This document shows, in pieces, positions 12,455-17,791 of a DNA stretch of 32,615 nt. Positions within the stretch are counted from its first letter, which is position 1, and the number at the start of each line of letters is the position of its first letter. The notes beneath the pieces are model-generated. The model ran no database searches and was not told the origin of the DNA. It saw nothing but the letters and a program-made list of their open reading frames with translations. The DNA lies in the IMG/VR virus record IMGVR_UViG_3300028025_002700, positions 1 to 32,615 of that record. One strand, given 5' to 3'. The stretch comes from a virus. The translations under genes were made by a program, and so were the position numbers.

Positions 12455-12949
12455 TTAGACTTTGTCTAGACAGCTCTTACAGATAGAACCCATGAACTGG
12501 ATGTTTACGATAGGCATGACAAACTCGTAGAATTCGCCGCCTTCGTTAGTTGTGTGACAACGGTCACAAAGCTCTTGACCAGTGCTGACATCCTTGTTTG
12601 CCTGTTCTATAGCACATTCCATACAATAAAGCTTATTCGGTTGAGCCAACATCCCAATCCAGACGGTTGGGTTTAGGGGGTCGACGTGAGCACAGTGGTC
12701 TGGCGCAGGGACATCTTCTTCGGCATTGACTTTATCTTCAAGGGTTGTCAGCCAGGTCCACTCCTCTAGGAGGTAGCCCTTTACTATTTGAGCTCGGCTA
12801 CGGTCCTTCTGTACTTTTTCGTAGTCAAAATGGTCTTCAAGTGCATTCATTAGATTGTGGTGCACTTCTGCTGCATGAGCTCCAGCAGCTTCTATCTGCT
12901 CGTTTGCTCTAGCTTCTTTGATTGCGTAGATTTGGTCGTCATTTTCCAT
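12455..12949 (-). CDS. Cys-rich putative metal-binding protein (164 aa)
   Basis: The start at ATG 12949 (MENDDQ) is preferred because AAGGA lies 7 bases upstream. It overlaps the dCMP deaminase stop by 11 bases. The N-terminal half is helical and charged. The C-terminal half has Cys/His pairs (CAH, CMEC, CDRCH, CKSC) consistent with one or two zinc sites. It resembles uncharacterised zinc proteins of actinophages but no named domain was recognised. Confidence 0.6.
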   Translation of the reverse strand: MENDDQIYAIKEARANEQIEAAGAHAAEVHHNLMNALEDHFDYEKVQKDRSRAQIVKGYLLEEWTWLTTLEDKVNAEEDVPAPDHCAHVDPLNPTVWIGMLAQPNKLYCMECAIEQANKDVSTGQELCDRCHTTNEGGEFYEFVMPIVNIQFMGSICKSCLDKV

Positions 12950-13448
12950 AATAGGTTCCTTCGATTTCGTTGGTAATTCGGTTATAAGCATACACGTCTA
13001 TTCCACATTTTTCAAGGTATTCCATAACAGTTTCTGGATTTCTGTGGTAATCCTCTTCGCCTATCAAGCAGTGGACGGTTTTGATGCCAGAATTGGATAT
13101 CAGCTTGGCACAACCCATGCAGGGTGGAGCAGTTACATAGATACTGCCACCTTCAACAGACCAGCGGTCTACATAAAGAAGGGCGTTTGCTTCAGCGTGA
13201 ATGGACGGACATCCGTCATAGGCTGCACCTAATCCAGTCTTACCCTGAGCACGCTCGCACCAGTCAATACAAGTTCCCTCTACTTCTAATCCAGCAGCAG
13301 GTCCGTTGTAGCCTTCGGCAATGATTCGTTCGCGTCTATCGACAATAACTGCGCCTATTTGAGCACGGCTACAGCGTGAGCGTTTGGCAATGCTCTTGGC
13401 ATTTTCGAATCTAATCTCTGTCCAAGAGGGTCTTTTGAAAGCTTCCAT
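12939..13448 (-). CDS. dCMP/cytidine deaminase-family enzyme
   Basis: This 169-residue zinc deaminase should convert dCMP to dUMP, the substrate of ThyX. HAEANAL provides the His84 zinc ligand and the Glu86 proton shuttle; PPCMGCAK provides Cys110 and Cys113. An extra Cys/His-rich insertion (TCIDWCERAQGKTG) is typical of dCMP deaminases of the ComEB/T4 type. Just upstream are a TATACT box and an 18-bp palindrome, so this gene may have its own regulated promoter. Confidence 0.92.
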   Translation of the reverse strand: MEAFKRPSWTEIRFENAKSIAKRSRCSRAQIGAVIVDRRERIIAEGYNGPAAGLEVEGTCIDWCERAQGKTGLGAAYDGCPSIHAEANALLYVDRWSVEGGSIYVTAPPCMGCAKLISNSGIKTVHCLIGEEDYHRNPETVMEYLEKCGIDVYAYNRITNEIEGTYYGK

Positions 13449-13455
13449 ACCCTCT

Positions 13456-13480
13456 AGTATACAAACTTAATCCTAAGTTT
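13456..13480 (-). promoter_or_regulatory. Promoter (TATACT) with palindromic operator
   Basis: On the - strand a TATACT -10 box (13456-13461) ends 7 bases before the deaminase ATG, which predicts a leaderless or nearly leaderless transcript. Immediately upstream is a palindrome AAACTTA-N4-TAAGTTT (13463-13480), placed where an operator would cover the -10/-35 spacer. No -35 match is visible. Confidence 0.5.
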
Positions 13481-13521
13481 ATACGACGATTATACAAAAT
13501 AGTTTTGTACATTAACTTTGC

Positions 13522-13604
13522 GAGCTACGCAGGTCTTGAACCTGCCCTGTCAGAGAACCCGAAGGTACTTCTTGCGAAGCCTGACAAGCATCCCCATTTA
13601 GCTC
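13522..13604 (-). ncRNA. tRNA-like folded RNA with GNRA and UUCG hairpins
   Basis: Read on the - strand, a GAGCTA/TAGCTC closing stem surrounds a TTGTCAG/CTGACAG stem. Inside that are two hairpins capped by very stable tetraloops, CTTC-GCAA-GAAG (13568-13579) and ACC-TTCG-GGT (13557-13566). A T-arm-like hairpin GCAGG-TTCAAGA-CCTGC (13529-13545) lies next to the 3' closing strand. The tetraloops are GNRA/UUCG only on this strand, which fixes the orientation. It is 83 bases, tRNA-sized, but no proper D-arm or anticodon arm can be drawn. Identity unknown. Confidence 0.6.
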
Positions 13605-13658
13605 CACTGGAACCATACGACCCATCATCCAGCGATATGCGACTTACCAAATAGTTCG

Positions 13659-13766
13659 TTTGCAACCGAGGTCTATTCAGTAGATCAATGGCACCCTAGC
13701 ATTTCTGCTAGCTCCATGGTCTCTCATAGTTGAGAGGGTGCCCCACATGCAAATGGAACCTAGACC
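13659..13766 (-). ncRNA. Multi-stem folded RNA element
   Basis: A three-way junction is visible: an 8-bp stem GGCACCCT/AGGGTGCC (13690 and 13735) enclosing hairpins CTCTCA-TAGT-TGAGAG (13721-13736) and CTAGC/GCTAG (13696-13711). It is enclosed by GGTCTA/TAGACC (13670 and 13761). A further TTTGCA/TGCAAA pair (13659 and 13748) crosses that stem, which would form a pseudoknot or alternate pairing. It lies between tRNA-Asn and the tRNA-like element, probably on the same transcript. Family unknown. Confidence 0.55.
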
Positions 13767-13791
13767 GCTTTACGCCTCTCTGTCTAGAGCG

Positions 13792-13863
13792 CTGACCACC
13801 CTGGATTCGAACCAGGAACCGTCCGATTAACAGTCGGATGCTCTGCCGTTGAGCTAGTGATCA
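13792..13863 (-). tRNA. tRNA-Asn (anticodon GUU)
   Basis: This is a canonical cloverleaf: acceptor TGATCAC/GTGGTCA with discriminator G, D-arm AGCTCAACGGCAGAGC, anticodon loop CTGTTAA (anticodon GTT), T-arm CTGGTTCGAATCCAG. CCA is not encoded. It begins one base after the tmRNA 3' end, so both are probably processed from one transcript. Confidence 0.96.
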
Positions 13864-13864
13864 T

Positions 13865-14205
13865 TGGTGGAGATGCGGGGAATCGAACCCCGGTCCAGTT
13901 ACGGATTCATTGTTCTTCTACAAGCTTAGGCAGTTTGAATATAAATAGTGTTTGACCTGCCAGACCACTATATTTTCGCTTTTCCAGGCAAGCGATTTAG
14001 CCCTGTTGCTTTGGTGTCCTATTTATTTAAAACCTAGCTGCCCACTTAGGACTAGTGCTTTGCTAGGGGCGTCTAACAACTATCAGGCTGCTAGAGCGAA
14101 TGCAGAACGTGATTCAGCATTTATTTTGTTTAGCGGTTTTACGAGACTCCGCCATCTCGGCTTGCTTCACCAACTTCAGAATAACTGTCGAAACCAGTCA
14201 TCCCC
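13865..14205 (-). ncRNA. ssrA: Transfer-messenger RNA (tmRNA), tag AESRSAFALAA
   Basis: A complete 341-base one-piece tmRNA is present. The 5' end GGGGATGACTGGTTTCGACA and the 3' end GGGTTCGATTCCCCGCATCTCC plus encoded ACCA form the alanine-tRNA-like domain (acceptor GGGGATG/CATCTCC). By alignment with known tmRNAs (AAAATA, one triplet, then resume codon) translation resumes at GCT (14118) and the tag reads AESRSAFALAA, ending at tandem stops TGA TAG (14080-14085). The AFALAA ending matches the ALAA degron that directs ClpXP-type proteolysis. It is transcribed from an extended -10 promoter just upstream and followed at once by tRNA-Asn. Phage tmRNAs are known in some actinophages. It would rescue stalled ribosomes and tag the unfinished proteins. 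Confidence 0.97.
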
Positions 14206-16756: not shown

Positions 16757-17226
16757 TACTGAGGCCACCTAACTTCATTGTTAACTGTAAATGTTAGGGC
16801 AAGAGAGTCTCCAGCCTTTACTTCTAAATCGGAGATACCTTTATCGGCCCAGCCCCACTCAGAAATAACACCGGGACGACGTACGAGAATAGCCCAGTAC
16901 GCGTCCTGAGGCGGCATATCCGAGCAATCAGCTTTATCTGGTAGCCCATTTACTAGGCACACAATCTGATCGCCATACTTGTCTGTACCATCGATCTTGA
17001 TTCCAATGGACTTTACTAAGTCCAATGCGTTACCATTTCCAACTGAAATACAACTGTTAATAGGAGTTTCTTCTGTAGGCAGATCTCCATAGTCAACAAT
17101 GAGATTTACACAGCCAACTTCAGATAGCTCAGAGCTCGAATTTGGAGTAGATACCTCTTTATTTACCCACAGACCAGCAAGCACAGCTGCGGTAATACCG
17201 GTAGCAATTAATAGTTTATTTTTCAC
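16756..17226 (-). CDS. Membrane-anchored DUF4430 (transcobalamin-like) protein
   Basis: The start is GTG 17226 (VKNKLLIATG), overlapping the adenosyltransferase stop by 11 bases; the longer ORF to 17289 would overlap far more. An N-terminal membrane segment (LLIATGITAAVLAGLWV) is followed by an extracellular domain. Its pattern is that of DUF4430, which resembles the C-terminal domain of transcobalamin: ALDLVKSIGIKI, YGDQIVCLVNGL, DAYWAILVRR, SEWGWADKGISDLEVKAGDSLAL. Four Cys may form disulfides. Its placement beside cobalamin adenosyltransferase and B12-dependent RNR suggests surface binding or uptake of a cobalamin-like ligand. The domain also occurs in proteins with other ligands, so this is inference. 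Confidence 0.75.
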   Translation of the reverse strand: MKNKLLIATGITAAVLAGLWVNKEVSTPNSSSELSEVGCVNLIVDYGDLPTEETPINSCISVGNGNALDLVKSIGIKIDGTDKYGDQIVCLVNGLPDKADCSDMPPQDAYWAILVRRPGVISEWGWADKGISDLEVKAGDSLALTFTVNNEVRWPQ

Positions 17227-17791
17227 GGTTAGCACCTGGAACCCATAGGACATCGCCGATCTCTCGATTAGCATGTCTAGATAATACAAATAGTAAGTCA
17301 GAAAGACGGTTGAGATACTTGGCAGTGGTAATGTTTACTCCCTCACCAAATGCGTGAATAGCATTCCAAGTCTGACGTTCCGCTCTGCGAACTACCGTTC
17401 TAGCTACATGAAGCTGAGCGGCTAGCGGAGTCCCACTAGGAAGCACAAAAGTTCTAAGAGTGCTCAGGGGTTCGTTGTAGTGGTCGATTAGATTCTCTAG
17501 GCGAGTAACCTGTTCTTCCGTAACTCTTAGCGGTGGATATTTAGGGTCATCAATAACTGGCGTGCAGAGGTCTGCCCCAACATCAAACATGTCGTTTTGA
17601 ATGCGGAGCAGGACCTCCTTCACATCAGCATCAATGTCCATAGACAAGGCAACTCCAATGCTGGAGTTGGCCTCATCTACGGTTGAGAACGCTTCAAGTC
17701 TGGCATCGTTCTTAGAAGTACGACTCCCGTCTCCGAGAGAAGTAGTTCCTTGGTCGCCAGTCTTTGTGTAGACGCTACTGATTACTACCAA
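17216..17791 (-). CDS. PduO-type cob(I)alamin adenosyltransferase
   Basis: This 191-residue enzyme transfers adenosyl from ATP to cob(I)alamin, making adenosylcobalamin. The family signature is clear: VYTKTGDQGTTSLGDGSR (ATP-binding N-terminus), ASTVDEANSSIG-like segment (AFSTVDEANSSIGVAL), FVLPSGTPLAAQLHVART, VRRAERQTW and YLNRLSDLLFVLSRHAN. The length is typical. It starts with TTG immediately after the RNR stop, so translation is coupled to RNR. It should provide the cofactor needed by that RNR. The gene is usually part of host metabolism, so its presence in a phage is notable. Confidence 0.94.
   Translation of the reverse strand: MVVISSVYTKTGDQGTTSLGDGSRTSKNDARLEAFSTVDEANSSIGVALSMDIDADVKEVLLRIQNDMFDVGADLCTPVIDDPKYPPLRVTEEQVTRLENLIDHYNEPLSTLRTFVLPSGTPLAAQLHVARTVVRRAERQTWNAIHAFGEGVNITTAKYLNRLSDLLFVLSRHANREIGDVLWVPGANREK

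Follow-up and report, generated by a model that had tools for sequence, protein, structure and literature searches.

A pseudoknot element and an anticodon-less tRNA-like RNA downstream of the tmRNA and tRNA-Asn genes of an actinophage-like virus

What kind of RNA lies in the 342 bases between the tRNA-Asn gene and the dCMP deaminase ORF (12939-13448, minus strand) of the viral record IMGVR_UViG_3300028025_002700? The first-pass annotation of the window (the whole stretch of 32,615 nucleotides that was analysed) had placed here a strongly folded cluster beside tRNA and tmRNA. The RNA operon runs on the minus strand. Its first gene is a tmRNA (13865-14205; ARAGORN, and Rfam RF00023 with 149.5 bits) with the tag AESRSAFALAA, and the gene directly upstream of the region is tRNA-Asn(gtt) (13791-13863; ARAGORN, and Rfam RF00005 with 64.7 bits). 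A promoter-like TTGCTA-18-TATAAT before the tmRNA (14263-14234, minus strand) is a pattern only, with about 1.4 such matches expected by chance. On the minus strand, which is the strand of tmRNA, tRNA-Asn and deaminase, the gap folds with -98.5 kcal/mol (z -2.0; 6 of 200 shuffles were as good), and its right unit alone (13521-13604) reaches z -2.9 (1 of 200 shuffles). The plus strand (z -1.0) does not stand out from shuffles. Folding energy alone is weak evidence, and we accept the RNA as real because of covariation. The annotation had proposed to look for covarying pairs in related phages and to give up the claim if they were absent; such pairs are present, so its own refutation test fails. 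A genuine folded RNA is present, and it is encoded on the minus strand.

We found that the region holds two evolutionarily separate RNA elements on this strand, a pseudoknot element of about 60 nt (F1, 13732-13792) and an RNA of about 170 nt (F3, 13519-13686). That the cluster consists of two independent modules lay beyond the view of the first-pass annotation, and the span that it had given cut through the left unit. Rfam 15 covariance models gave no family match in 13440-13800 even at E ≤ 10. At the gathering level, the window region and its relatives returned only tRNA, tmRNA and, elsewhere, manA, none of which explains the element. The annotation had been unable to match the segment to the large phage RNAs GOLLD and ROOL, and Rfam likewise returned neither at the gathering level or at E ≤ 10. 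In addition, blastn searches against 50,697 annotated phage records, with the element, its copies in contigs L053 and L040, and F1 with the neighbouring tRNA-like RNA as queries, found no related match. As far as Rfam 15 and the open-access literature are concerned, F1 and F3 are previously uncatalogued; an earlier description elsewhere is possible. The deaminase and ribonucleotide reductase of the window are nearest to those of Actinomycetia phage DSL-LC01 and other actinophages, and a search of DSL-LC01 for both elements found neither F1 nor F3. The window also encodes a phage cobalamin adenosyltransferase (17216-17791; PF01923, E 1e-60, without PHROG match), which adjoins the B12-dependent ribonucleotide reductase.

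F1 starts at the 3′ end of tRNA-Asn and is matched by the covariance model R1 with 52.3 bits in the window. A gapped pattern taken from the left hairpin led to about twenty further phage contigs, where F1 continues in a conserved way beyond the pattern. Among the fetched phage contigs, R1 has 24 members at 52-88 bits and everything else stays below 22 bits. In nearly all of the 24 copies, F1 follows a tmRNA, tRNA or tRNA-like RNA and starts right at its 3′ end. The same pattern had four matches in 84,980 bacterial and archaeal genomes; none of these exceeds 21 bits with R1, and they seem to be chance matches. The hairpin P1 (13760-13787, minus strand) is nearly invariant because it was fixed by the search pattern, and P3 (13743-13756, minus strand) is formed in 81% of the cells as aligned and is weak for some members. 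A model made without the window clade still matches the P1 hairpin of the window (E 8.7e-4) and leaves the P3/P2 part unmatched; since the pattern fixed most of the hairpin, this match is support for resemblance and not proof of descent.

The pseudoknot helix P2 joins the loop of P1 to a strand downstream of a small second hairpin. Its pairings are GGAG/CUCC, GGGAG/CUCCC, GGAAG/CUUCC and GAGAG/CUCUC, and in the window GAGAGG (13775-13780) pairs with CCUCUC (13732-13737), both on the minus strand. In an anchored Watson-Crick test of hand-aligned strands, the five distinct strand types match their own partners, and the true assignment alone of 120 permutations reaches the observed pairing. When all eight strand types were used (including L024, which has one mismatch in P2, and the G-U member), 120 of 40,320 permutations were as good. 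The anchored test was adopted because an unanchored permutation of the longest helix anywhere did not tell the true partners from permuted ones, 792 of 5040 permutations being as good. Judged from these alignments, the predicted P2 pseudoknot is supported across the family, and the pseudoknot suspected in the first-pass annotation exists, with a covarying helix. The 8-bp three-way junction of the same annotation fared less well: its stem is present in the fold, but the left junction (13690-13742, minus strand), which comes from the minimum free energy fold only, overlaps the 3′ strand of P2 and loses pairs in L002 and L024. Since it uses the same CUCUC strand and loses these pairs, the pseudoknot is the better family fold, and the junction is probably not the native fold, or an alternative fold at best.

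Directly after F1, many contigs carry another anticodon-less tRNA-like RNA (GGACUG...CAGUCCAC, T-loop UGCRAAU; L032 5283, L040 3757-3829, L053 5250-5316, L068 and others). Its D-like and anticodon-like stems differ between contigs, and the changes look compensatory. A manA RNA (RF01745) lies close behind tmRNA and F1 in L045 (7233-7410) and L060 (1645-1822).

F3, delimited by the covariance model R3, its homologues and covariation, begins with hairpins A and D and ends with a tRNA-like domain (13520-13604); all its parts are read on the minus strand. Hairpin A (13641-13686) bears an invariant, T-loop-like loop GUUGCAAA on a stem that covaries (UCG/CGA, CCG/CGG, UUG/CAA); the window and L053 have a longer stem here than L040. 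Hairpin D (13605-13634) has 7 pairs, 100% paired in six sequences and two of them with two-sided change, and joins the acceptor-like stem without a linker. This 6-bp stem (13599-13604 with 13522-13527) occurs as GAGCUA/UAGCUC, GAACUA/UAGUUC and AGGCUG/CAGUCU, with two-sided change in three of the six pairs and none broken. The T-arm (13529-13545) has a 5-bp T-stem in which two pairs show two-sided change and, again, none is broken; both stems covary and are 100% paired, as in the T-arm and acceptor of a tRNA. A D-loop-like strand AAUGGGGAUG lies at 13589-13598, with the stem-less, invariant AAUGGGGAUGC in the place of the D-arm. In the place of the anticodon arm there is a branched arm of two hairpins (13546-13588); an anticodon arm with a 7-nt loop is absent. 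Besides AAUGGGGAUGC, the T-loop UUCRAGA and a linker G are invariant, and at position 7-66 an invariant A stands opposite G, which is not a pair. GC follows the acceptor-like stem, and CCA is not encoded.

In 13440-13800, F3 receives no ARAGORN call and no RF00005 match at E ≤ 10. It has neither an RF00023 match, which only 13865-14205 gives, nor a tag reading frame. By its modelled structure, the domain has the layout of a tRNA elbow without the decoding end. The first-pass annotation had described much of this on the minus strand, and its GCAA and UUCG tetraloop hairpins, its T-arm-like hairpin and its acceptor-like stem in the strongly folded right unit are all present; the tRNA-sized unit for which it could draw no anticodon arm is the tRNA-like domain.

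The near relatives were reached through the proteins flanking the element and are L002 (98.6% over the element) and L024 (92.7%); L003 has a different structured stretch in the same place. A divergent copy was found in L053/L054 through the motif GGARCTAAATGGGGATGC. Beyond the window clade and L053/L054, this pattern matched sequences that on inspection seem to code for protein, and we discounted them as chance matches. Five helices with 25 pairs were compared in the window, L024 and L053: every pair is formed (100%), and there are 8 two-sided changes (0 of 500 shuffles; slid partners at most 37% paired). Both lineages had been used in drawing these helices, which biases the result in their favour. 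The model R3 was built from these three sequences. Searches of whole records with R3 brought up the distant homologues L040, L066 and L094, which score 75-80 bits (E about 1e-16 to 1e-17) and each lie close behind a phage tmRNA on its strand; 15 of the 21 records searched had no F3.

Over the six F3 sequences, the four helices that align throughout have 126 of 126 cells paired, all standard, and two-sided change in 9 of 21 pairs (0 of 500 shuffles; slid partners at most 40% paired). Because a model of this structure produced the alignment of L040, L066 and L094, the counts lean towards it. The structure was, however, drawn without these three, and their acceptor-like stems bring further types of compensatory change. 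The branched arm, which does not align between lineages, was left out of the counts. The sample comprises six distinct sequences on metagenome contigs from one freshwater phage assemblage.

For the function of the two modules, we propose that tmRNA, tRNA-Asn and the region would be made as one transcript with the region as its distal part. F1, which begins where the mature upstream tRNA or tmRNA ends, would most likely be a structured trailer or spacer, and it may define or protect RNA ends during processing. F3 would be a separate stable non-coding RNA, most likely trimmed or released by host tRNA-processing enzymes. As a tRNA mimic, it would most likely engage a protein whose recognition of tRNA depends on the elbow or acceptor and not on the anticodon. 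The lack of an encoded CCA, the A.G at 7/66 and the abutting hairpin D could hinder RNase P, CCA addition or charging. We hold the structural part of this explanation with high confidence. The whole, in which F1 is a trailer or spacer and F3 an excised and stable tRNA mimic, seems to us somewhat better than an even bet.

A purely processing role is the main rival. Here both modules would only separate, fold and mature the neighbouring tRNAs and tmRNA, offering RNase P, RNase Z or exonucleases a substrate-like handle, and would have no function of their own once cut. It is favoured by the exact start of F1 at mature 3′ ends and by the tRNA-like 3′ part of F3, which would recruit tRNA-processing enzymes. 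However, the size of F3 and its conserved upstream hairpins exceed the needs of a processing handle, and F3 in L040, L066 and L094 is not between tRNA genes. It follows tRNA-Asn in L024 and tRNA-Trp in L053, and it stands between ORFs in L040 (about 0.9 kb past the tmRNA) and in L094 (past the tmRNA). Given these positions, F3 is neither the leader of one gene nor a spacer of tRNAs only, and we consider the purely processing role rather unlikely.

In relatives, further structured stretches that show no visible resemblance to the element fill the spaces around tmRNA and tRNA-Asn (L003 4456-4552 and 4626-4935; L024 5105-5174), and this site looks like a hotspot of RNA elements. Downstream of the tmRNA, L040 (4050-4180), L060, L062 and L094 share a conserved, apparently non-coding stretch of about 120 nt (GGCTCTTTACTGCTGAGTCCACAAGACCAACC...GTACTAGGTC). 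Also downstream of the tmRNA, L025, L026 and L027 share the unit TACCAGACCGTTAGGCGGTCGAACGGGTAATGG with a hairpin that shows paired changes, and a terminator follows; L026 has in addition a tRNA-like GGGTAGT...ACTACCC.

The region could also be what decay has left of a tRNA, with the F3 domain a tRNA minus its anticodon arm and F1 and the rest mere spacer. In favour of this, F3 has tRNA genes as neighbours and retains both a T-arm and an acceptor-like stem. Nevertheless, decay gives neither nine compensatory pairs without a broken pair in six sequences nor invariant loops outside the tRNA consensus, and F1 recurs in 24 places with its own covarying pseudoknot. Covariation has thus largely refuted this reading already, and we think it very improbable.

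Slightly less credible still is a cis-acting leader or riboswitch of the dCMP deaminase gene, although in both the window and L002 the deaminase follows the region on the same strand. A separate conserved promoter/operator-like block of the next gene (13458-13510, minus strand) stands between F3 and the deaminase, outside the RNA elements. The same block is found in L003 and L024, where it sits downstream of other sequences and, in L024, away from the element. It contains a palindrome TACAAAACTATTTTGTA and AAACTTAGGATTAAGTTT, and it recurs upstream of genes in relatives. Moreover, other genes follow F3 in L024, L053 and L040, in L024 behind a terminator that comes at once after the element; since the contexts differ in this way, F3 is not tied to one downstream gene. 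Bacterial YrlA RNAs carry a tRNA-like module as F3 does, but a Y RNA-like role, in which a stem tethers the Ro60 protein and the other part copies a tRNA, has hardly any credit with us, as the YrlA model (RF02553) finds no match at E ≤ 10 in the region and no TROVE/Ro60 gene was found in 11 contigs, several of them partial.

The closest known RNA is RNA C (rnaC, species 1 RNA) of phage T4. T4 RNA C and RNA D are long known and still without function (PMC3014915, PMC9697503), and RNA C was detected by Northern blot (PMC9697503). Like F3, both are small RNAs encoded within a phage tRNA cluster that belong neither to the tRNAs nor to any known Rfam family (RNA C and RNA D have no Rfam match), and RNA C shares the acceptor-like stem and the 3′ T-arm without an anticodon. 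By inspection of four sequences, RNA C and three divergent relatives, we found that the acceptor-like stem and T-arm are kept with no anticodon, and that compensatory changes occur in the acceptor (A-U to G-C) and in the T-stem (G-C to U-A). In L104 (T4 rnaC, 1109-1247) and L105-L107, the loops UUGACG and CGUCAA are complementary, and they are kept in the diverged Citrobacter phage NM4.3; judging by this complementarity, a kissing interaction is possible.

In contrast to F3, RNA C has no hairpins A and D and no AAUGGGGAUGC strand, and it occurs in Straboviridae, whereas F3 occurs in freshwater actinophage-like contigs. The models R1 and R3 gave no meaningful match on the T4 tRNA region, and homology to RNA C was not detected. 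F3 is encoded among phage tRNAs, has a tRNA-like 3′ domain and lacks an anticodon, so it is of the kind of RNA C, which denotes a kind and not a homologous family. As far as structure tells, F3 appears to be built on the same plan as RNA C.

Two other known RNAs invite comparison. The tRNA-like domain of tmRNA, a gene of the same operon, resembles F3 in its acceptor stem, its T-arm and its D-loop without a D-stem, but F3 has no mRNA-like part, no tag frame, no Rfam tmRNA match and no encoded CCA. GOLLD and ROOL are phage RNAs near tRNA islands with no function assigned (PMC12286853). The elements of the window share this setting, but GOLLD and ROOL are far larger (GOLLD often exceeds 800 nt) and have no Rfam match here.

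A tentative and rather doubtful further step would place F3 clearly in a class of phage RNAs that imitate a tRNA in elbow and acceptor and omit the anticodon. Such RNAs would tie up or misdirect the host's tRNA-handling or tRNA-attacking proteins and, at the same time, would not offer anticodon nucleases their cleavage site; T4 RNA C would belong to this functional class by independent evolution. A second phage lineage, apparently unrelated, keeps an anticodon-less tRNA-like RNA under strong structural selection, which points to a general role of such RNAs. A new pseudoknot motif in its own right, F1 marks the 3′ ends of tRNA and tmRNA in phage operons. The structures supported by covariation provide concrete probes for asking which enzyme cuts, charges, modifies or is blocked by such RNAs.
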